Assembly (NCBI RefSeq): GCF_001625195.1
Contig: NC_054389.1
Span: forward strand, 8,924,520 to 8,988,519
Length of the DNA stretch: 64,000 nt
DNA from: Drechmeria coniospora
Lineage: Eukaryota > Ascomycota > Sordariomycetes > Hypocreales > Ophiocordycipitaceae
Reading direction: 5' to 3'
A program made the translations under genes and the position numbers. Within the stretch, counting starts at the first letter, position 1; each line of letters starts with the position of its first letter. Positions 6,762 through 42,787 of this stretch are shown here, piece after piece. The notes below the pieces were generated by a model that did not search any database, had not been told where the DNA came from, and saw only the letters and a list, made by a program, of their open reading frames with translations.

Positions 6762-7853
6762 ATGCTGCCACTATCGCACTCTCTCGACAAAAGAGCCCGC
6801 CTGAGGCAGCTCCTTCTTGCCGTCGTCGCTGGCCTCGTCGTCGTCTCCATCTTACTGCTCCGCCCGGCGAGTCTGCTTCCGACCTTGGCCTTGATGGCAG
6901 GCGCCGACATCCCCGGCCTCGCCGAGGCACTGGAAGCGGCCGCTGAATCGTGCGAGAGCTACGGCTGGCAGAGGTTCGTGCCCGAATCGTCGAGCGGGAA
7001 GCGCAGGGTCTACGACCTGTTCATGATCAACACCGAGCTGGACTGGCTCGAGATTCGACTCGGGACGACGTACGACGCCGTCGACTACTTCATCATCTTC
7101 GAAGCGGACATAACCTTCACCGGCCTGGCGAAGCCGCTCTTCGTTCGCGACAACTGGTCCAAGTTCAAGCGCTTCCACCGCAAGATGATATACCACAAGG
7201 TCGAATTCCCGCCCGGGTTCAACGCAACCGACATGTGGAAGAAGGAGAGGTTCACCCGAGACGCCATGCTTGAGCAGGGCCTGCAGCAGCTCCGCGGTCG
7301 TCAAGAGCCCCGTGCCGGCGATGTCATCATCTTCGCCGATGTCGACGAGATTCCTCGACCAGAAGTCCTCCACCTGCTTCGCGCCTGCCAGTTCCCGCGT
7401 CGCGTCACCCTCCGTGGCCGGTTCTACTACTACAGCTTTCAGTTCCTGCACCGCGGAGACGAGTGGCGAGCGCCGCATGCGACCTACTACGAAGGACTGG
7501 ATACCATCCTGCCCAACGATTTGCGTGGTGGCGTCGGCAAGAACGCGCACGAGTCGGTGGATATTGCCAACGCCTCCTGGCATTGCTCCTCGTGCTTCAA
7601 AACCGTGCACGAGGTTCGCGTCAAGATGGAGTCATTCTCCCACACCGAGTACAACATCGAAAAATATCGGGACAGTCATTGGATTGCCGATCACGTACGT
7701 CAGGGAACCGACATGTGGGAAAGGAATAGGGAGGTGTACGACAGGATCGACGGCAACAGGGACCTACCCGACTACCTCCTGAAGCATGCCGACAGATTCC
7801 CTTACATGATCAACAGGGACGGACCGACTGCTGGCTTTTCTGATTATCCGTAA
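6762..7853 (+). CDS. family 17 glycosyltransferase, type II membrane protein
   Basis: Resembles the GT17 family (beta-1,4-N-acetylglucosaminyltransferase III-like, PF04724). The single exon encodes 363 aa. A short basic cytosolic tail is followed by a membrane anchor (about residues 16-34), a stem, and a lumenal domain. The domain starts with the family-typical VYDLFMINTELDWLEIRL (residues 83-100), then DYFIIFEADITFTG, and holds an acidic DVDE (193-196) in IIFADVDEIPRPE, a likely metal/nucleotide-sugar site. A conserved WHCSSCF segment and SHTEYN lie in the C-terminal half. Role inferred: Golgi or ER transfer of GlcNAc to glycans; the fungal substrate is not settled by sequence. The ATG at 6762 is chosen because it precedes the anchor. 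It converges on the LysM gene to its right. Confidence 0.88.
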   Translation: MLPLSHSLDKRARLRQLLLAVVAGLVVVSILLLRPASLLPTLALMAGADIPGLAEALEAAAESCESYGWQRFVPESSSGKRRVYDLFMINTELDWLEIRLGTTYDAVDYFIIFEADITFTGLAKPLFVRDNWSKFKRFHRKMIYHKVEFPPGFNATDMWKKERFTRDAMLEQGLQQLRGRQEPRAGDVIIFADVDEIPRPEVLHLLRACQFPRRVTLRGRFYYYSFQFLHRGDEWRAPHATYYEGLDTILPNDLRGGVGKNAHESVDIANASWHCSSCFKTVHEVRVKMESFSHTEYNIEKYRDSHWIADHVRQGTDMWERNREVYDRIDGNRDLPDYLLKHADRFPYMINRDGPTAGFSDYP

Positions 7854-8216: not shown

Positions 8217-9571
8217 CTAGCACAAAGAGTTGGCCGGCTCCGGTTCAAACTGGCAAGTCTGCTGGCTCACGCAGTCTTCTTCCTTCTTCGCGCACCGGAA
8301 ATGCAGCGACTTGAACTTCCAGCCCTCGCTCCAAGCGGTCCGGCACTGGCCCTTGTTGGCGTATCCGTACCCGAACCACTTGCCTGAGCATTCCGCTTGC
8401 TCCCAGTAGCTGATCTGCACCTGGCCTTCGGGGCAGTAACCCTCGGCCGCGATTTCCAAGGAAGCAACGGAGCAGGCTGTATTGATGCAGATCCCGTCGG
8501 CGACCGCGATGTCATTCTTGACCTCACCCGTGCAGTCGGCGTGGTATCGTGTCTTGAGCCTGAATGCGGGAAGGACGCCCACGCAGACGTAGGCTTTTGC
8601 CCAGAGACCTTCGCATGCGGCTCCGATGCTGGGATTCCACCGGGCCAAGTCGTCGAAGGAGATGCCTGCGTTGGAGGCAATATCAATGCAATTCTCGTCT
8701 GGCTTCACGTAACGGAATCGATTGCAGTTGCTGACCATGCCTGGCTGCGTTGGTGTAGGCGTCTGTATGCCGTTGCCCGGCGCACCCACGACCGGCGCAT
8801 TCACGACCGGCGTTGGCGTATAGCCGATGACGGAGACGCAGGCATACGTACCGGCCCAAAGCCCGCTGCACGCCTCTCCCTCTTGGGAGTTCCAAAGCAG
8901 AAACTCTCGAAGGGGAATATTGTACTTGACGGCGATGCTTTTGCAAGTATCCCCCCCGTTGACCCAAGCAAACTTGTCGCAGTTGCCCACCACGCCGGGC
9001 TGCAAAGGGGAAGGAGTTTTGATGCCTGCATGGATTGTGTTAGTTGAGATGTGGGAGGAATGTGGCGGGCGGCTCTGAAATGGTATTTACCATTCGGAGG
9101 CTCAGTCGTCGTCGTCGTTTCCACGATGGGAACCGCTGGACTTTCTGGATGAGGATTGCCAACATTCGATGGATCGCTCGGCACTTTCGAAGTTACCGTC
9201 GGCTCTTCCATTGCCTCGACACAATAGGACTTGCCCGCCAGCAAATTGGTGCAGCCAGAGCCAACGGAGGGGTTCTGAAAGGCGTATGGATTAGCCGCCG
9301 CCTACCTAGCGAATCGAACAGAGGCAGAATGATGGCATACCCATCTCAAAAAGGCATCCACGGAACATCCGTATACATCGCAGATGGCGGCACACGTTTG
9401 GGAGCCGTTGTAGTCAAGCCAGAAACTGCAATGAGGTGTCGTCCTCTGGTCATGCGGCAGTCCAGGCTTGTCACCGGCACGGCTCTGCAGAGTCCCCGGT
9501 GCCGGTCTGGCAATGCTCGCCAGGGCTAGAGGAATGACAATGTGTGCCAAACCAAGTAGGTGGAACCACAT
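8217..9571 (-). CDS. secreted protein with three LysM domains (LysM effector-like)
   Basis: Spliced from 9571-9341, 9274-9091 and 9025-8217 into 407 aa. Introns of 66 and 65 nt have GTATGC/GTAAAT donors and TTTCAG/ATGCAG acceptors, the second with CTAAC. The ATG at 9571 precedes a signal peptide (about 1-21). LysM1 lies near 37-92 and spans intron 1, with WNPSVG split at the junction. LysM2 is about 156-204 (NGGDTC ... LLWNS) and LysM3 about 241-288 (KPDENC ... RWNPSIG). Ser/Thr/Pro linkers separate them. Residues about 295-407 form a Cys-rich tail that I do not recognise. Fungal LysM effectors bind chitin oligomers outside the cell, hiding them from host receptors or shielding hyphae from chitinases. 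Proximity to the killer-toxin-like chitinase fits a self-protection or joint role, which is inference. Confidence 0.9.
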
Positions 9572-11521
9572 TGCGGCTGTTAATAGTGATGCAGCGGTGC
9601 ACCACACTTCGATCGTTTGTTTATCGCAACGCGCCGGAGAATTCGAGCTTTAGTGGCCGGCAACGCGCCTTTTCAATGACTGCTTGCTCCATGAACACCA
9701 GCTTATGCACCCGTGTGTAGCATCACGAAGCTTGTAATCATGCGTTCAAAAAGCCTTCCATCTGTAATCATGCGGTAAGCGAGTAAGAGCTATGACATCT
9801 TGCAGAATCCAAAACCGACCCTAAGCTGCCTTCGGCGAGGTAGTCCGAAATAAAGTCGGAGTCAAAGCTATTACATGTCCTCCGTACCCGTATTCAGTGT
9901 TACAGTGTCCCCGTATAGTGATAGAATGCGACAGGAGACTTCAGTTCCTTCGTAAAATACATGCTCCATGGTTCGTTGGGTGGCCATGGCGATGTCGGGG
10001 ACACCTTTGTCAACGCTCTTATCCTCTTATTTCATCTCTACCAATGTGCAAAAGTTCAGATAGACCAAAGCGAGGGAATTAATTTATTGTGGCAGCTAGA
10101 AATCTGGAAATAACTTTAACGAAGCAATGTGCCATGCGTGCAGAAACCGTATTGAGGGGATAATGATAAGCCTCGTGAAGATGGGGTTGACTCTACGGAA
10201 TGCTACATAATTCCTTCTATTAAGCCCAGAATACTCCTCAGTGAATACGGAGTACTTACTTGTACATCGTGCTCGTAATACGGAGTACTTATACGGAGTA
10301 CTCCGTAGCATCTTCGATTACCCCAACTTATGGGTCATATTGACACCCCTCCCCTATAATTGCCCCTCCGAACCACGTTGCAACACAACCAGAAAATACG
10401 GGGTATGTGCTCCGTACAAGAGAATCACCTACTTACTTGTAAACGAGGACCTGACGTACGGAGTACAAGAGAATTCAATATGTGAGGACATATAGTAAGC
10501 TTCGGTACATGGATAAAGAAGTCATCACCGTGTGATAATGGCTAAAGATTATGCGGCCCAGTTGAGCTTGACATCCTATACGGAGTACGGAGTATAGTTC
10601 ATGTACATGTACATGCAATGCTCCATACTAGCAATCGACAGGATGCCACGTTTGCAATTGTGCAGAGAAACAATTTTCAATGTTGCAATCAGCCTCAAAT
10701 GTCGGTTCACTATCATGAGGTATATCGCGCTGCCAAGAGTGCTGGTCACTTCCGAGTCAACCCATGCCTTTGGCTTACACTGGAGATGGGGTTTTGGTGA
10801 ATATTAAACAGATTATTGCAGCGCATGTGAAGTTCAATGGTTGATCCCAATGATTTTCTGGTTTAAAGGTGACAACAGTAATACAGCTACGTACAAGGAT
10901 AGTACCTTGGTGCGCTACGGAGTACATATCGTCCCATACCGCCAACTATTGCAGTGTATGCTTAAAGTATGGTACCCAGTAACTCTTGGCCGTGATGGAG
11001 GGCATATATCGATACTTGCCGAAGCTTTTACAAGGATTTGTATTTTCAATGCCATTTTTTGTCTACACGTGCATGTTTCACCTGTATGCCTGCCTACCCG
11101 CTTTCCTCGGACCTCGAAGTGCTATGCCTGGTTGGGTCAGCGCAAAGCTGTGGTCTCTCCCTCCTGGTGACGGATACCATACAGACAGGACAGGTTCAGT
11201 ACGGGCTGGCATGGTGCGAATCATGCCCTTTAGCGAAACCTAGTCAGATCGCGATGACCACTACGCGTTCTTGCTTCGTACTATTGGTGCTGCTTAGCAG
11301 CAATTACAATGAAAATCGATGGGAGCATGTAACATTTTCTGCGAAATCAAAGCGTAAAAGTCCTGCAATGAAGCGATACAGCCGTCTGGCCAAAAAAAGT
11401 CGTATTGAAACATATTCCTACCCCCCCCCCCCCCTTCTGGTTAAAGTACAATGGGACTGAAGAAATAGCCAATGACTTTTGGGGTGACGAGAGGCAGCGA
11501 CTTGACCTGTTGTGTCCTGCG
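9572..11521. other. gene-free spacer rich in TACGGAGTA motifs
   Basis: No credible gene. Motif copies lie at 10246, 10279, 10292-10307 (perfect palindrome), 10457, 10579-10594 (overlapping pair) and 10916. A 14-base C run is at 11421-11434. Confidence 0.6.
10292..10307. repeat. perfect 16-bp palindrome TACGGAGTACTCCGTA
   Basis: Clearest complete copy of the motif scattered through most intergenic regions of the window. Two half-site copies sit just upstream at 10246 and 10279. Confidence 0.8.
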
Positions 11522-12751
11522 TCAAGGGCACCTTCTGACCGATGCCGCGGCCGTGCCTTGGTAGCGGCCCCTCGTGTCTGACCAATTGGTGAAGACATTG
11601 ATGTGCTCAATGCTTTTTGGTGAGGACGCGAGTTTATCAAAAGCCTCCTCTGCCTCGGCCAGCGTTTTGAATCTGCCCGACTTGACGGCCGCCTCGGTAG
11701 TCGCTTGTCGCTTCGGCGCTTCCCAGCTCTCCCATGACCCTTTGATCACATCTGTCTGAAGATCTGTTCCGAATATTTTCCTCAAGCTAGGACTGCGAGC
11801 ATCTTTCGGTCTTCCATGCAAAACATTCTTGAAGTGGTCCCCTTTTCGCATCTCAATCACTCGGTCCGTTGCCACTGTCATCGTCGTAAACCAGGTCTTG
11901 AACTTCTCTTTCGTATCATCGGTGGAAGCCTCAAACGCTGTGTTGAGTCGCCGTTGGTAGTAAGATAGAGTTTTGACGAATTCCTGATACTTTGCCGGAC
12001 TGTCATCCCTTGCAATGCCGTCAATGTGCTCGTAGTTGAGGTTGCCCCTGAATGGCTTTGGTTTGATCGCCGACGGGATGACTTTGACCCCCCCTTTGTC
12101 TTGAACCACGACTGCTTTGGTGTACGGTTCTCCAGTTTTCATTCCTTCCTTCCAATCTGGATTTGCAGCGAGCCAGTCGACCCATTGCCTGGACGAGCGG
12201 GGGACATTCTCGCTTGGAGGATTCACTTTCTTAACCTCTCTCAACTCCGACCCTTCGATGCAGTCGACAATTATTTCCACTCGCTTCTCCGCCCCAATGT
12301 CGTCCCGGAACATGCCTGCCATTATACCCCAGTCTCCTTTCAGTTTACCAATTTCTGTTGTCGAGCTACCAATCATTACAGCGTCGTAGTTGATCTTCTT
12401 GACGTCCTTGCGGTCAATCCATGCCAAGAACTCGGAAAGGTAGCACTTTATCGTCAAGTCAGTCACGAGCATTAGCGGTCAAGAGCCTTTGTTTCTCTTA
12501 CCCTGCCTGCCTGACCGCCGAGACCTTTGCGACTCCCTTTGCAGCTCGCGGCAAATTTCATATCTCCCTCGGGGAGAATTTCTTCAGCAATGTATATCGC
12601 ATAATATACAGCTCTGAACCGCTGGTCAGCCCTGAATGCCGCTTGATCAATGTGTCGTTTCATACCGCTCTGCAGAGCCTCGAATCCCGAACGCTGTCGT
12701 GACCATAGCCCAAAAGGTCGCAGCAAGCAAGAGCAACAACGAGCGATTCAT
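11522..12751 (-). CDS. secreted protein of unknown function
   Basis: I reconstruct three exons (12751-12666, 12613-12502, 12445-11522) encoding 373 aa. Intron 1 is 52 nt (GTATGA ... GGCTGACC ... TTCAG); intron 2 is 56 nt (GTAAGA ... GCTAATG ... AAAG). The frame is kept only with these joins. The ATG at 12751 opens a strong signal peptide (MNRSLLLLLAATFWAMVTTA). The mature part has few cysteines (CKGSRKG, RCYLSEF, VDCIEG), is charged and mixed alpha/beta in character, and ends in ASVRRCP. I recognise no domain. It is transcribed away from the killer-toxin-like chitinase, with 840 bp between start codons, so shared control or a partner role is possible. Exon 2 boundaries are the least certain part. 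Confidence 0.68.
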
Positions 12752-13591
12752 TATTTCTGGTTTTTGTATTCTCAAGACAGAAAGTGGCTCGAGTTAGGAG
12801 GTTGACGAACTGTGAAAATGGCGCAGTTCATATATAGACTAGATCATACGGAGTACACACACCCGCGCGTTGTGATATCCAAGGAGTCCAAGTATATAAT
12901 TGCCTACAACAAATAAAGCAGGAATACTTAATTCCCAAGCTCTTGAAAGACGGCATAGGCCTGGGGAATCCGACGATGAGGTCCTCTCGAAACGGTCCGT
13001 AGCGTTGGCTCGTTGCAGGGATTCCGTGCTATGATCCCCACGCCATCCATGTTCTGATGTTCGGGATATCGCCAGGAATGGTTGCTGTAGTCCGGGCCCG
13101 CTCCGAACTCCGAGATAGAAGAGTAATGCTCCCAGAAATGTGGCACAGGCGATTAATAATCTGAATCAAATTCTGCTAATCGTTTCCTGGTTTCAGTAAG
13201 CAACTATTGAAAATATAGCCAGGGTTCAACGGCGCGGCTCTGTTCCAATTATAGATGATATTCACTTTCATGAATCACGAACTTGTGACTACATATCCTT
13301 GACTGTGCCTCAAAGTCATTTGTGCGATCTCCGGTTACAAAATGTCATGAAGAAATAATTTCTCCATCTATTTTAATCTGCCATTCCTTTACGCTTCTTT
13401 CGTCCTCATCCAATCTCCTCATTCCTTTGCCACCAACCATAGCCCTCTGCACTCTACTACAAGGCATCTGTGGCCTGTACTGTCGCTGTCATTCCTTGCT
13501 GATAAATATTCCAAAATCCCAACTTTCATCAAGTAGTTCTGCACCTCCTCCAGCTCAACGCCTGACCCGCTGATCCTCGAGCCACCGAGAG
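12752..13591. other. divergent promoter region between the secreted unknown and the chitinase
   Basis: Holds a TACGGAGTA motif at 12847 and TATATAGA/TATATAA stretches near 12830 and 12894 that could serve the minus-strand gene. It also contains the orphan frame at 12928-13146. The 100 bases before the chitinase start are pyrimidine-rich. Confidence 0.45.
12928..13146 (-). other. orphan open frame, possible gene relic
   Basis: About 70 codons without an ATG start, ending at a TAA 177 nt upstream of the secreted unknown's start codon. The translation has ordinary protein composition (WRYPEHQNMDGVGIIARNP; AYAVFQELGN) rather than the low-complexity look of chance frames nearby. The frame is closed by a stop just upstream, and I find no exon joining to it. 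It may be a relic of a vanished gene or chance. Confidence 0.25.
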
Positions 13592-16500
13592 ATGCGGTTA
13601 GATCTCTGCGCCGGTGCATTGGCCTTGGCTGTGCTGTGCTCCCAATTCGCAGAGGCATCTCAGACAGAGGATGATGCCAAAGATTTCTTCGAAGAACCAA
13701 CGGAAGATCCCCATACATTCTATTCAGATCTGCATCCCTGCCCTAGGAAATGCGATGGTAAAGCCCCTGAAGATTGGGATGTCTTTACGGATTTTGATCG
13801 GCTAAAACTTTGTCTTCAACCCGTGTTGTTTGACATGTCGTTATACAACCCCGTTGATGATTACGATACGCCTCTCAAGTTGCGCATATGTACAAAAGGT
13901 AACGACAGAACGCGTGTGAACGCTCTTTTCAGCAGCAGAGAGCCACCGGCTATCGGAGAAATTACGCCGCCACGAACTACGCAGTTGCGTGTGCGACAAT
14001 CCGTCGAGGAATGTATTACTGGAAGACAAAGCAAGGCTCGTTTGAAGCTCATTCGTGAAGTCTCCCAAGATGGCTCAGGCTATTCGGAACCTATCTCGAC
14101 GCTTCTTGGACACTTCTCGGAATATTTCGAGGACAAGGCAAATTGTCATGATCAAGTCCTTTTCGGATACGCCAATGGCACAGTCGTCGGCATGTATGCT
14201 GGCAAAGCCTTCGGAAGAGCCACAGTAAACTCCGTCGTGGGCCGTCTTCTGGCCTCCATTGCCAACGACGGGCACTCTTCTAACATGATGGGGGAAATCT
14301 GCGGGAAAGGACGCAATGCAGAGCATGTCTTTGGCATAGCGATCAGCGCTGATGGCGACTTGGCTGCTGTCCAGAGCGCTGTCCGAAGGTGGGATGGTGC
14401 TGAATGCGGAGAAGAGACATCAGCTTCTACTTCAAGTCTGGAATTGAACGTCTGGCAGACGCAGGACATTTTCAGAGGAAACGACACCAACCAATGGTTG
14501 AGCACCTTACCAAGGAATACGACCAGCCGACATGTGGTCAATCTTTCCGCCCGTGGCGATTGCCGTACGTTGAAGGTCATGGCTGGTGATTCCTGCAGTG
14601 CACTGGCTGTTCGATGCGGAATCTCAGGAGCTGCTTTCATGAATTATAATAGCGACCCGAAGCTATGCTCAAGCCTAATGCCTGAACAGAGGATCTGCTG
14701 CTCGTCTGGAAGCCTGCCCGACATCCGACCCAAACCAAATGATGACGGGTATGCCCCGTCTCAGATGCGACACCATTGTTCATTGCGCTAACCCCTTCCT
14801 TTGAAGATCCTGTGCCACTTATCATGTGAATCCTAACGATAGCTGTTCTAAAATTGCTGCTGCCAACGGGCTCGACATTGAAGACCTGTTCATTTTCAAT
14901 TCAGGTCAACGCGGGACCTGGGGGTGGACCGGGTGTGGAAGCTTAATGGCTGGTCTGAATATCGTGTGTTCATCTCACCTCCTATCATTCCGTCATAATA
15001 ATACTGAGATGCCTTCTATTTATAGTGTATAAGTCATGGCACGCCGCCTATGCCTGCACCGGTAGCCAACGCCGTCTGTGGCCCTACAAAGCCCGGTTCC
15101 AAACCACCTCTTGCCTCGCAGAGTCTTGCAGATCTTAATCCGTGCCCGCTGAAAGCTTGCTGCAACATTTGGGGACAATGTGGCATCTCTGGTGTAAGTG
15201 TGGATTACGAATGCCATAATTGACACTCAATCTGGTTGACTGGCAACATTAGGACTTTTGCCAGGAAAAGCGCGGCAAAACGGGCAATCCCGGAACGGCA
15301 CCTCGATCGGTGAACGGGTAAGTATCTAGGAGGCACGGTGCATAAAGAAATACTTTCTTGCTAAGAAATGGCACTGTAGATGTATATCCAACTGTGGTGT
15401 GGACATTATCAGCACTTCCCGGAATGCAAACTTCGGCCGTATCGGCTATTATGAGTCTTGGAATTTCAACCGCGACTGTCTCCATTTACGGGCCAGCAGC
15501 GCCAATACGGACGGGAGCTACACGATAATTCATTGGGCCTTTATGGACATTGATCCGTCAAATTGGATGCCTAAACTCAAAGACGATCATCAGCAATGGG
15601 ATGAGTTTACGTCCTTGCAAGGGGTGAAAAAGATCATCTCGTTTGGTGGCTGGAGTTTCTCAACAGATCCTGCGACGTATAACCTGCTTCGACAAGCAAT
15701 GAGCCCGCAGAATCGGATCGCCTTTTCCAACAACATCGCCAACTTCCTGGTTGATCAAGGCCTGGACGGTGTTGACTTTGATTGGGAATATCCCGGAGTA
15801 GGTACCCGAGCAATATGTGCACATCTACATACAATTAACCGAAGGAACTCACTAATGGTTAATGAAAGGCTACGGACATCGACGGGACACCACCAGGTTC
15901 TCCTAGTGATGGGCCCAACTACCTCAAATTCTTATGGACAATGAAAGATGCACTTGCTCGCGGATCCCATGATAAGTCGGTCTCGATAGCCGCTCCAGCA
16001 TCATATTGGTACCTCAAGGCCTTCCCGATACAGAAGATGGCGGAAGTGGTGGACTATATCGTGTACATGACGTACGATCTTCACGGTTTGTCTCCGCATT
16101 CCTTGCCTTCTCTCCCTCGATGAGACAGTAGTCGCTCATCTAAACGCATAGGGCAATGGGATGCCGGGAACCAATATTCTATGGATGGCTGCCCGGCAGG
16201 TAACTGCCTACGATCACACGTCAATCTCACGGAAACAACGGCGGCGCTTGCCATGAGTACGTATTACCGCACCATGTTATAATGCGCGTTGCACGAAGCT
16301 CACTTCACTTTGCAGTCACCAAAGCCGGGGTTCCCTCCACCAAGATCTACGTGGGCGAGGCAAGCTATGGCCGATCGTTCAAAATGTCCAAGGCGGGCTG
16401 TGTTGATCCCATGTGCACCTTTGAAGGAGATAGGTATAATTCCGAAGCAATGCCTGGCGTGTGCACCGGTACAGAAGGATATCTCTCGAATGCCGAGATC

Positions 16501-18210
16501 AACCGGATACAGAGTGTGCAAAGCAACGTTCGAACTTGGCACGATCATTCAAATTCGGATATAATGGTGTATGATGGTAAGTCTAAACGAAAATTGTAAA
16601 AAAAAAAAAAACCAGGGATCAGTCATGCGCGTTTAGTTCCCAATTCCGTGCATGCTGACCTTTGTGTCGTACCAGATACCGAGTGGGTTGCCTACATGAC
16701 CACTACGACAAAGAACACGCGCCGGAAGCATTGGAAGAACCATCAGTTCGCGGGTACAATTGATTGGGCAGTAGATCTTCAAGAGTTCACGTCCGACGAC
16801 GACTATGGCGGCAGCGGCGACGACGAAAAGGATGAGTTCGACGGGTCGACTCCGCCATCCAGCTGTGATGGCTCGTACAATACATTGGAAGCCATCGAAG
16901 CGGACAAAGACAAGATGGAGGATCACTGCCGGGACGAGTACATGCTGCAAGTGCTACAAAAGATGCTGGAAGACTCGCTCAAGACGCACGACACGCTCCT
17001 GGCCAATAATTACGACCACTACTTCGATCTCTATGCCGAGGCCGTCATCCACAGCTCCGGCAAAGCTGTCAAGGATTTCATGTACAAGCACGGAAACGAC
17101 TACTTTTCGTGCATCGTCACCGAGACGTACCACGGCTGCGACCATTGTAGAGCAATCAACACGAACCCTGAAACTGTTGACCGCAGTTGTCGATACTGCG
17201 AGAACTACGACTGCGGCGCGGCAAGCGGTTGCGTACCCGGAAAGGTTGACCTCTGCCAACTGCATCACTCGTTCCGATATCGTAACATATCGATGCCATG
17301 CCCACCTGACTACGCGATGCGGTCTTCTGGTCGTCCAGACGATGATAGTCCTCCACAGCAAGCAACGTACTGGACTATGCTCGAAGGCAAGTCGGACAGT
17401 TTCTACGCCGACCTCTACAAGGGTGTAGGCATCGACAACGAGCACATAAAATGGAAAGACGTGCAGCAATACCCTACGGAGAAGAATGATGCGAGCTATT
17501 CCCATCAATTTTGGGATTACAACTTCCCTGTAGTCGACAACTACAGAGAGAAAGATGTGGCCAATCCAAAGGAAATTATCGACAAGGGGCGCAGCAACCT
17601 GAACAGCATGGGCCCGGATCTTGCCTCGGTTCTGGAACAGATCAAGAAACAAAGCTACGGCGGCTTCGTTGGTGATCTTGTCGATGCGCTCGCGATGCCC
17701 ATCATCTTGGTCGAGCAAGCGGTGGCCAGCATGAAGACGGTCAATGACATTGGCGAGCACATCGACGAGGAAAAGCGCAAGGCCATCATCATCGGCTTCC
17801 TCACCGCTCTTTTGTTCTTTGTGCCCTTTGTAGGCGAGCTTGCGGGAACCTTTGTCGCCATGGCCGGCGTTTCTCGGATCCTGACCATCGTCGGGGCCGT
17901 CGGCAACGCGGCGCTGGACATATACTCGGTCGTCGATTCCAAAGGCAACGACCCTTTGGCCATTCTCAGCCTCGTTCTCGCTCCGGCTGCCATTTTCGAC
18001 GTCGCGCGTATCGGCAAAGCGGCGACGATTCGTCGGGGTGCGCAGGAGACGGAGGTTGCGAAGCTCGGCAAGGAGACGAAGGCTCGGCTCGACATGATTG
18101 ATCGCATCAAGGGCAGAACAACGTGTGCGCTGCAGAAGCGAGATTGGAAGGACAAGACGGCGCTTGGTGGCATGCCACTGCCAACGAGCAATCTAGCCAC
18201 ACAATGGTAA
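13592..18210 (+). CDS. killer-toxin-like chitinase: LysM x2, chitin-binding type 1, GH18, long C-terminal region
   Basis: Nine exons give 1360 aa: 13592-14748, 14807-14963, 15026-15193, 15253-15317, 15380-15797, 15869-16085, 16152-16256, 16316-16576, 16676-18210. The eight introns are 58-99 nt. Order: signal peptide (1-22); N-terminal Cys-containing domain of the family; LysM1 (about 322-370); LysM2 (387-438); type 1 chitin-binding domain (about 460-510, CCNIWGQCG); GH18 (about 520-855) with intact DGVDFDWEYPG, catalytic Glu 652, plus SFGGW and MTYDLHG. The C-terminal half (about 870-1360) has an Asp-rich linker, a Cys cluster (CDHCRAIN ... CRYCENYDC) and hydrophobic segments (GFLTALLFFVPFVGELAG and AILSLVLAPAAIF). 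This is subgroup C of fungal GH18 enzymes, related to the zymocin alpha/beta subunit that attacks chitin during toxin entry. Likely secreted and acting on fungal or arthropod/nematode chitin. All key GH18 residues are present. Confidence 0.93.
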
Positions 18211-19140
18211 GCGACGGAGGTGAGCGGAGGAGGTGAGCGGAAGCCGCGAGCGATGAGGTGAGCACTCGTGGTGAACCGTCGAGGATCGGCGTGCTTGGTG
18301 AGCGTTTGGTGGCAGGCCATGGCGGCAAGATTGACGGGCCATTCACAACGAGGGAATGTCGCAAGAGGAAGGGGGAAAAGAGATGGCGATGGGATCGCAT
18401 GCTATTTGGGTGTGTTGCATGATACGACCATATTGGTGTACCGGTCGTGGTTGGCGTTGAAGAACGATGACGTTTTTGTGTACTATCTCGTCATGGCAAA
18501 TTATGCCGATTCTCCATTCATACGTTATTACTCTTTCCTTCAACGCGTTAATCTTCTCCTCCATTGGCTTGGTTGATGCCACATCTATCCTTGATACCTG
18601 ATGAGCAATTTGAAGCAGTTTTCATTTTCACATGTTACGCTTTGTCTCGAGAACTGCCCACGAATTAATTATGTGAGCGTTGAGAGTGCCCAGCAAGCTG
18701 TAAGTACGGAGTAATATGACATGGAGAGGAGTTGTGCTCCAGAGGAACTCTGGGGAGTGACATATAATGACAAGTTTTCAAATTACTTAAGTACATGTAC
18801 ATGTACTTACAGTATGTGTACGGATAATTACTATGAACTAATTACTCCGTAATAATTGATTAATTACTACGGAGTAGCATGCTCACGCTTATTATCGTGA
18901 CCCACAACGCGGTAGGACATGCCAAAACGGGAAATATCAATAAGATATCCACAGCGGAAATATTACCCACTATAATCTAAGCTCACGCTTCGCAAACATG
19001 TCATAAATAGTACGGAGTACAGAGTACATGATAAATACATATATTTACACCGCTCTGCTCCTGTTGCCACCGAGCGAAGCCCACACTTTGAACATCTCCA
19101 TACTGCCTGTCTTCATACCATTTCCACGTGTTCATTTGCG
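18211..19140. other. gene-free spacer with TACGGAGTA motifs
   Basis: No gene seen. Motif copies at 18705, 18843, 18868 and 19011 lie within an AT-rich stretch upstream of the 2EXR gene. Confidence 0.6.
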
Positions 19141-20175
19141 ATGGATTTCGTCCGATTTCGTTCGCTTCCAACCGAGATTCGAGAGGTGATCTGGCTCCTG
19201 AGCCTGCCGGCCGACGAGCCCGAGGTCTGTCTCATGTGGCCGGTGAATCTATTCGAAAGAGAAGAGGGCCCGGCGAGCATGCGGCCAAGCCGACCATTCA
19301 TTGTCGATACCGCTTTTCCGGCCATGATGCACGTATGTCACGAATCCCGCGTGCTGGCGCAGGACTCGAAACGCAGTCGAGTGAGATTCCGATGGTCCAT
19401 TGCGGCAGCATGCCCGGTGCCCTTTCGTCATTATCGACCAGACCTCGACACAATGTACTTTGGAGCGGAGAATCTTCATCCGATCTTGCGGTCCTCCGAT
19501 TTGGACGACCAGCTGTCGGACGTGAAGTCGGTGGCGTTTGACATTCACGAGTGCCTTCGACATGAAATACACGTCATCGACTTCATCCGGCAAGAGTTTG
19601 GCTCGCTTCAGACTCTATCGTTCGTATTGGCAGACTCGACAGGCGAGAAGAAGATTGATGATTTCGGAAGACCCGAATGCGTTGCATTCAGACAGCCCTC
19701 TCGATGGTGCAAGCTGCAACAGATCCCCCAAGAAATGATGGATAAAACACGGCTCTATCCGAACTTTCCGGTGCGAGGGCGAAATCCAGTTTCGCTCTTG
19801 GATTTTCTCCATTATTTTCGAACGAAGCTTGAAGCCAGCGCACTCGAGGGGCGTCGACTCGCTTCGGCCATCCAGGGGACCGATCGGTCGCACGTCGTGG
19901 CCGACGAGGAGAACTTCCTCTGGCATGGGCCAAACTTGAAAATTCAGGCTCAGACATTCGTCGAGTACCAAAAAGACGGAAGCTGGAAAGAGGTTTGCGG
20001 CGATAGACAATTTGTTGCGTCTCTTGATACCGTCATGTCGGGCCGATATGTTCCCATGGCCAAGAGGCTGAACCCGGAACGCTGCCGAGTGAATGACCTG
20101 GATGGCGATTTCGAGTTGATTTATCTCACAGCTAGCGACGACTACGACGACGACGACGACGACGATATGTACTAA
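19141..20175 (+). CDS. 2EXR-domain protein
   Basis: The single exon encodes 344 aa. The first residues match the fungal 2EXR family (PF20150): FRSLPTEIREVIWLLSLP, then a short linker and the typical HVCHESRVLA segment (about residues 62-72). A basic/aromatic strand (RVRFRW) and a Y..D.D.MYFG element follow, as in family members. The C-terminus ends in a run of Asp (GACGAC repeats) before Met-Tyr. The family is large and expanded in filamentous ascomycetes and its biochemical role is unknown. There is no signal peptide, so it is probably intracellular. The ATG at 19141 is the first in frame and directly precedes the motif. Confidence 0.82.
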   Translation: MDFVRFRSLPTEIREVIWLLSLPADEPEVCLMWPVNLFEREEGPASMRPSRPFIVDTAFPAMMHVCHESRVLAQDSKRSRVRFRWSIAAACPVPFRHYRPDLDTMYFGAENLHPILRSSDLDDQLSDVKSVAFDIHECLRHEIHVIDFIRQEFGSLQTLSFVLADSTGEKKIDDFGRPECVAFRQPSRWCKLQQIPQEMMDKTRLYPNFPVRGRNPVSLLDFLHYFRTKLEASALEGRRLASAIQGTDRSHVVADEENFLWHGPNLKIQAQTFVEYQKDGSWKEVCGDRQFVASLDTVMSGRYVPMAKRLNPERCRVNDLDGDFELIYLTASDDYDDDDDDDMY

Positions 20176-41983: not shown

Positions 41984-42787
41984 TATGGCGTGGCGGTGGT
42001 ATTATCTCCGCTTCCAACGGCTAGCTAGCTTCACGATGGTTGGGAAGGGGGACGTGTCGAGTCGGAGGATCGAACGGAGCATAAGTAAGTATAGTGCATG
42101 CGGACTGACTGCGTAGCGGGTACTTATCGATAGGGGACGGTTTGGGGTACCATCTCATTACCTAATTAGATTATTGTACAGTACTTGTACGGAGTCCATG
42201 CACACAGTATTACTCCGTACTTCGTACTCCGTACTTACCTTTCAGTTACTCCGTACTCCGTACGTACCGTGTACTTACAGTTACAGTACTTGCAACTACT
42301 CCGTACATATTAGCACTGCGCTACGAGTACTCCGTGCCTTAAAAAGTACAGAAGAACGCATGTACTAGGTACTTACTTACAAGGTACGTTCGGAACACAC
42401 TTACCTGAACTGGTACTCCACAGCAGTGGTGCACCCGCTCTACCTGTAATAATACACGCATAGTATTACTTGTTTAATGCTTGCTTTGTCTCTAAGTACT
42501 AAGTAGGTAGTTCGCTGGCACTTGCTTCTCGTTTCTTCCCCAGCGCACGACAGCATCTTGCAAGCTCCAACCAGGCAATTTTTCCCGCAAAAGTCGCATA
42601 GGCACATTCGAATTTCGAGACGACGACCATCTCAGATGCCTAGAAGAAATTTAGGATTCTAGAGAGACGAGGTGGTGCGTTCTGCCTTTGGCAATCCTAT
42701 CAGCCTCAGGCCCAAATCCTTGTCGGTTGGATCATCACTGGGCTCGGCACATTGCCTTTTGCGTTCATTCTCGCCCGAAAGACCAAA
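41984..42787. other. divergent spacer with the densest TACGGAGTA cluster
   Basis: Upstream region of the EF-hand gene and of ORC6. Its left half is saturated with GTACTCCGTAC-type words. No gene seen. Confidence 0.6.
42172..42345. repeat. cluster of TACTCCGTA / GTACTCCGTAC words
   Basis: Within about 170 bp there are at least seven full or near-full copies in both orientations (TACGGAGTCC, ATTACTCCGTAC, CGTACTCCGTAC, GTTACTCCGTACTCCGTACG, CTACTCCGTACA, AGTACTCCGTGC). Confidence 0.8.

Follow-up and report, generated by a model that had tools for sequence, protein, structure and literature searches.

A killer-toxin-like chitinase and a linked, putatively toxic secreted protein encoded at a chromosomal locus of Drechmeria coniospora

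Which product of a chitin-directed secretory locus of the nematode-parasitic, nematode-killing fungus Drechmeria coniospora is the likely weapon? The locus lies in a 64-kb stretch of DNA (C1:8924520-8988519, referred to here as the window) on a chromosome-sized contig of 12,542,233 bases in the 32.8 Mb assembly with DCS_ locus tags. It contains genes for a LysM protein (A), a secreted-type protein (B), a killer-toxin-like chitinase (C), and a 2EXR-family protein (D). Genes A, B, and C were modelled using GT-AG introns. Each of the three models has a complete reading frame and starts with a hydrophobic, signal-peptide-like segment, as judged by eye. The initial annotation had placed three adjacent secreted-type genes here, and their coordinates are correct. 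We propose that the locus probably encodes a two-part killer toxin of the zymocin/PaT type on the chromosome, with B as its likely toxic subunit.

Gene C (13592..18210, plus strand) has nine exons and encodes a protein of 1360 residues. The chitinase is composed of two LysM modules (14573-14698 and 14820-14900, plus strand; Pfam), a CBM18-like module, a GH18 domain, and a C-terminal region of about 500 residues. It thus has the GH18, CBM18, and LysM modules and the long C-terminal extension of subgroup C chitinases, the CBM18-type match being below the Pfam cut-off (E 0.00027). The GH18 domain spans residues 537-883 (Pfam, E 5.8e-41), and its DGVDFDWE motif at residue 645 (15765..15788, plus strand) is unbroken, in agreement with the one intact GH18 centre that had been noted before. 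The earlier count of five LysM modules is reproduced by Pfam, with three in A and two in C. Some of the closest relatives of C bear the names chitinase and killer toxin alpha/beta, which bears out its identity as a killer-toxin-like chitinase. The C-terminal region of the aligned chitinase P0004 has four hydropathy peaks of 1.64-2.29. Placed on window coordinates by the length offset of P0004, they correspond to hydrophobic stretches of C (17677..18012, plus strand), proposed to be a membrane-transfer region similar to that of zymocin beta. The C-terminal cysteine at residue 1333 (Cys763 of P0004; 18124..18126, plus strand) is conserved in at least 90% of 13 aligned chitinases.

Gene B (12751..11522, minus strand; exons 12666-12751, 12502-12613, and 11522-12445) is divergent from C, across an intergenic stretch of 840 bases (12752..13591, no strand). 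It encodes a secreted-type protein of 373 residues, the proposed anticodon-nuclease-like toxic subunit. Both splices are identical to those of the public model RJ55_03945 (P0001) from another D. coniospora assembly, which starts 15 codons downstream and therefore lacks the signal-like start. Pfam gives only chance-level matches to B. A protein search returns three matches only: the gene itself in the RJ55_ assembly, the paralogue B' on contig C3, and MGU_08729 of Metarhizium guizhouense. Exon 3 of B differs from that of B' at 119, 93, and 180 sites in codon positions 1, 2, and 3, respectively, over 306 aligned codons; the excess of third-position differences is as expected for a real coding sequence.

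Three genomic sites match the C-terminal region of C, and a fourth match spans only its first 37 residues. Window frames of at least 40 codons, over the full 64 kb, were compared with a 60-kb region of C3 that surrounds the nearest chitinase paralogue. All matches at E ≤ 1e-5 fall within 8217-20175, the interval of A, B, C, and D. At this second locus, the minus strand carries C', then D', then B', with small D-like gene pieces beyond B', and a diverged relative of A is positioned about 10 kb from B' on the plus strand. The B and C frames of the C3 copies are open, with identities of 49% (B exon 3) and 66% (last exon of C). The window and C3 copies stem from a single duplication and form a duplicated pair among the three loci. 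Since the order changed at C3 but B and C were retained, we consider that B and C belong together. The two genes carry consecutive locus tags in the RJ55_ assembly; the same holds for B' and C' under the DCS_ annotation, which seems to have left D' uncounted.

At the third locus (C1:7.76 Mb), a gene for a secreted-type protein of 299 residues, B'', is divergent from the chitinase gene C'' across a gap of 745 bases, and a 2EXR gene is located on the other side. B'' was found by reading the chitinase neighbourhood; the genome search with B did not give it. No LysM match besides the chitinase's own modules is present at the third locus. Each of the three loci has a secreted-type gene linked to the chitinase, in one case detected by inspecting that neighbourhood. 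Within the genome the set does recur as a neighbourhood, but the three-gene order differs at the second locus. A B-type gene is near the chitinase each time. B had been taken for a third secreted partner; the better reading makes it the toxin itself.

The protein search with B'' yields 35 matches, consisting of P0018, which is the B'' gene in another model, and 34 others; family members include proteins from Trichoderma, Xylaria, Nemania, Dactylonectria, and Cosmosporella. Alignment A2 comprises 34 of the 35 matches, with P0018 included and P0030 left out as an apparent NB-ARC fusion. In P0030 (source ena, 461 residues), a B''-family protein is predicted behind an NB-ARC domain, a fusion that may be a gene-model merger. 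Across 34 members of the B'' family, a Pfam match at E ≤ 0.1 is never shared by two members. BLAST finds no similarity between B and B'', and hmmsearch barely reaches from one to the other. Profile-profile comparison gives a probability of 96.5% over 134 columns, with a score of 73.7 versus at most 26.6 among 200 shuffles. Judged by these profiles, the B and B'' families are homologous.

The best match of the B'' family model is to the structures 4O87/4O88 of PaOrf2, and a PaOrf2-type fold is predicted for B by way of the B'' family. Searches of Protein Data Bank chain sequences give no match beyond chance, hence no detectable sequence similarity to PaOrf2 of the PaOrf2/DrOrf3 sequence family; gamma-toxin and PaOrf2 themselves share hardly any sequence similarity (PMC4431711). 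One alignment column holds histidine in every row of the joint alignment A3 (26 of 26) and in 31 of 34 rows of A2. Its equivalence to His287, which together with His299 is described for PaOrf2 (PMC3775755), depends on an offset accurate to about one residue. The corresponding His347 of B (His332 of P0001; codon 11603..11605, minus strand) is probably a PaOrf2-type catalytic histidine. The C-terminal cysteine of B is kept in all 26 rows of A3. Alternatively, B could be a non-catalytic partner of the chitinase, such as a secretion or assembly factor, a cofactor, or an extracellular inhibitor that spares the producer wall, and its likeness to PaOrf2 would then be a shared helical arrangement only. 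We regard this as unlikely.

We hypothesize that, as part of a bipartite killer toxin, C uses its LysM and CBM18-like modules to dock on chitin, cuts it with the GH18 domain, and helps B across the target membrane by means of its hydrophobic C-terminal region. Inside the target, B would act as a secreted ribonuclease-like subunit with the PaOrf2 fold, cleaving tRNA and stopping translation. The conserved C-terminal cysteines of C and B would allow a disulfide, through which the two proteins may be joined. The beta and gamma subunits of zymocin are disulfide-joined. The likeliest targets would be competing fungi and yeasts with chitin walls, and nematodes are also possible. In this scheme, D is a candidate for a protective or regulatory role inside the cell, and A would accompany the toxin as an optional binder of chitin.

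Gene A (9571..8217, minus strand; exons 9341-9571, 9091-9274, and 8217-9025) encodes a secreted-type protein of 407 residues, with three LysM modules (Pfam) and a cysteine-rich C-terminal part. It fits the build of LysM effectors, with a signal-like start (by eye), LysM modules, and no hydrolase domain in Pfam. The second-locus relative A' (C3:9277012-9277694, plus strand) is 42% identical over A residues 275-391, and the two in-frame stops between its pieces may be introns or signs of decay. The genome search with A gives no match at the third locus. The nearest relative of A is at C2:10151435-10152801 (10.15 Mb), 52% identical over the C-terminal part of A and about 290 kb from the closest GH18 match. 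By analogy to Tal6, A may be an optional companion that binds chitin. Adjoining A in the window is a gene for a glycosyltransferase family 17 protein (6765-7853, plus strand; PF04724, E 3.7e-51), to which nothing corresponds in the 60 kb compared at the second locus.

It is also conceivable, with low probability, that the chitinase itself is the weapon, directed against fungi or the nematode host and paired with a shielding LysM protein, and that B is an accessory effector. LysM genes adjoining chitinase genes are known in Trichoderma (PMC3218866, PMC4392113), and killer-toxin-like chitinases are said to make walls permeable and thereby admit toxic metabolites (PMC5999205). However, no LysM gene beyond the chitinase modules was found at the third locus, the one at the second locus is diverged and distant, and it is the B-type gene that stays near the chitinase throughout. 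Of the attacking enzyme with a LysM partner that had been suggested for this DNA, the weapon-like function remains the best reading, but the gene that consistently accompanies the chitinase is B rather than A. That A to D are mere neighbours co-carried in a segmental duplication, with no joint function, is very unlikely: they are the sole window matches to the 60 kb examined on C3 and derive with them from one duplication, yet at C3 the order and orientation are altered while the B and C frames stay open with third-position-biased changes, and the more diverged third locus repeats the divergent layout of B and C with a similar gap (840 versus 745 bases).

Gene D (19141..20175, plus strand), which was absent from the three genes of the initial annotation, belongs to the recurring set. 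It encodes a protein of 344 residues without a signal-like start, assigned to the 2EXR family at E 1.9e-11, and is a candidate immunity or regulatory gene. D' is 50% identical to D. The genome has at least ten 2EXR matches (E ≤ 0.1), three of which are at the three loci; the third-locus gene D'' is not recovered by the search with D. D-related fragments near the second locus (C3:9340374-9340580 and C3:9267970-9268171), one of them with an in-frame stop, suggest repeated duplication and decay of the 2EXR gene there. Intracellular immunity proteins accompany yeast killer toxins (PMC4431711), and D, too, might shield the producer or regulate the system.

The killer-type C-terminal region is missing from a fourth LysM/GH18 chitinase gene (C1:6707205-6709938; L035, L036). 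Behind this gene, on the same strand, lies an open frame containing an HExxH metalloprotease-like motif, and a piece resembling the start of A is found on the gene's other side. P0016 of Orbilia brochopaga (TWF696_007988, 1367 residues) combines a killer-toxin-type C-terminal region with the pectate-lyase-type PF12708 and PF12218 instead of GH18. This domain build suggests that the killer-type region could move between proteins as a delivery module for different wall-cutting enzymes. Elsewhere in the window, the 9-mer TACGGAGTA occurs at 35 sites on both strands, versus 0.15 expected from shuffles, and is frequently clustered, as at 10246-10924 (between A and B), 18705-18876 (past C), and 42211-42305. 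It is a dispersed repeat motif.

We speculate, tentatively, that killer-toxin-like chitinases of filamentous fungi deliver chromosomal tRNase toxins encoded by dedicated genes, the B and B'' families, which would occur in many ascomycetes and diversify as polymorphic toxins, and that the neighbouring 2EXR gene provides cognate immunity or control. If so, yeast killer plasmids would carry a captured and reduced version of a weapon from fungal chromosomes, or vice versa. In the cited part of PMC5999205, these chitinases are described without a dedicated protein toxin; a linked, PaOrf2-like subunit, as proposed for B, would supply the missing half of their action. A linked nuclease in filamentous fungi is not reported in the titles and abstract openings among the open-access matches listed, and the words 'killer' and 'LysM' have zero occurrences in the main text of two D. 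coniospora genome papers. A subunit of this kind would make the question testable through a single gene, link the plasmid toxins of yeasts with fungal chromosomes, and define a new candidate family of antifungal ribonucleases.

How does the locus compare with known systems? Class III Hce2 proteins link a chitinase domain to a putative effector (PMC8042737), whereas Pfam gives no Hce2 domain in A, B, or C (four matches at E ≤ 1 for C), and B is encoded separately and belongs to a different family. In Trichoderma atroviride, tal6, encoding a LysM-only secreted protein, adjoins the subgroup C chitinase gene tac6 (PMC4392113). Genes A and C resemble this pair, but B sits between them, and the third locus lacks a counterpart of A. 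Killer-toxin-like chitinases are numerous in Trichoderma and found in other filamentous fungi, and deletion of chiC2 in Clonostachys rosea or chiC2-2 in Aspergillus nidulans lowered growth inhibition by culture filtrates, in the former against two of three fungi (PMC5999205). C shares the LysM, CBM18-like, GH18, and long C-terminal build of subgroup C (C-II) chitinases. These are said to open the wall for toxic metabolites (PMC5999205), whereas a dedicated protein partner is proposed for C.

Zymocin of Kluyveromyces lactis (alpha, beta, gamma) likewise has a LysM chitin-binding chitinase subunit and a separate toxic subunit, which the transmembrane (beta) part is said to carry across (PMC8472843); it is plasmid-borne in yeast, unlike the chromosomal D. 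coniospora locus. Zymocin depends on wobble uridines that are made by Elongator (PMC5618205). PaT of Pichia (Millerozyma) acaciae consists of the cell-invasion subunit PaOrf1 and the anticodon nuclease PaOrf2. It is encoded on an A/T-rich cytoplasmic linear plasmid, the location typical of yeast cytoplasmic killer plasmids (virus-like elements, VLE), whereas the genes described here are chromosomal, have introns, and have a G + C content of 52-53% (0.52 for B and C). The D. coniospora system also differs in its lack of detectable sequence similarity, in its candidate protector, a 2EXR protein, and in that the nuclease activity of B is a prediction. Like PaT, it combines a chitin-binding chitinase that has a hydrophobic region with a secreted protein encoded by a gene of its own, the B'' family model fits PaOrf2 best, and a histidine is conserved near the C-terminus.
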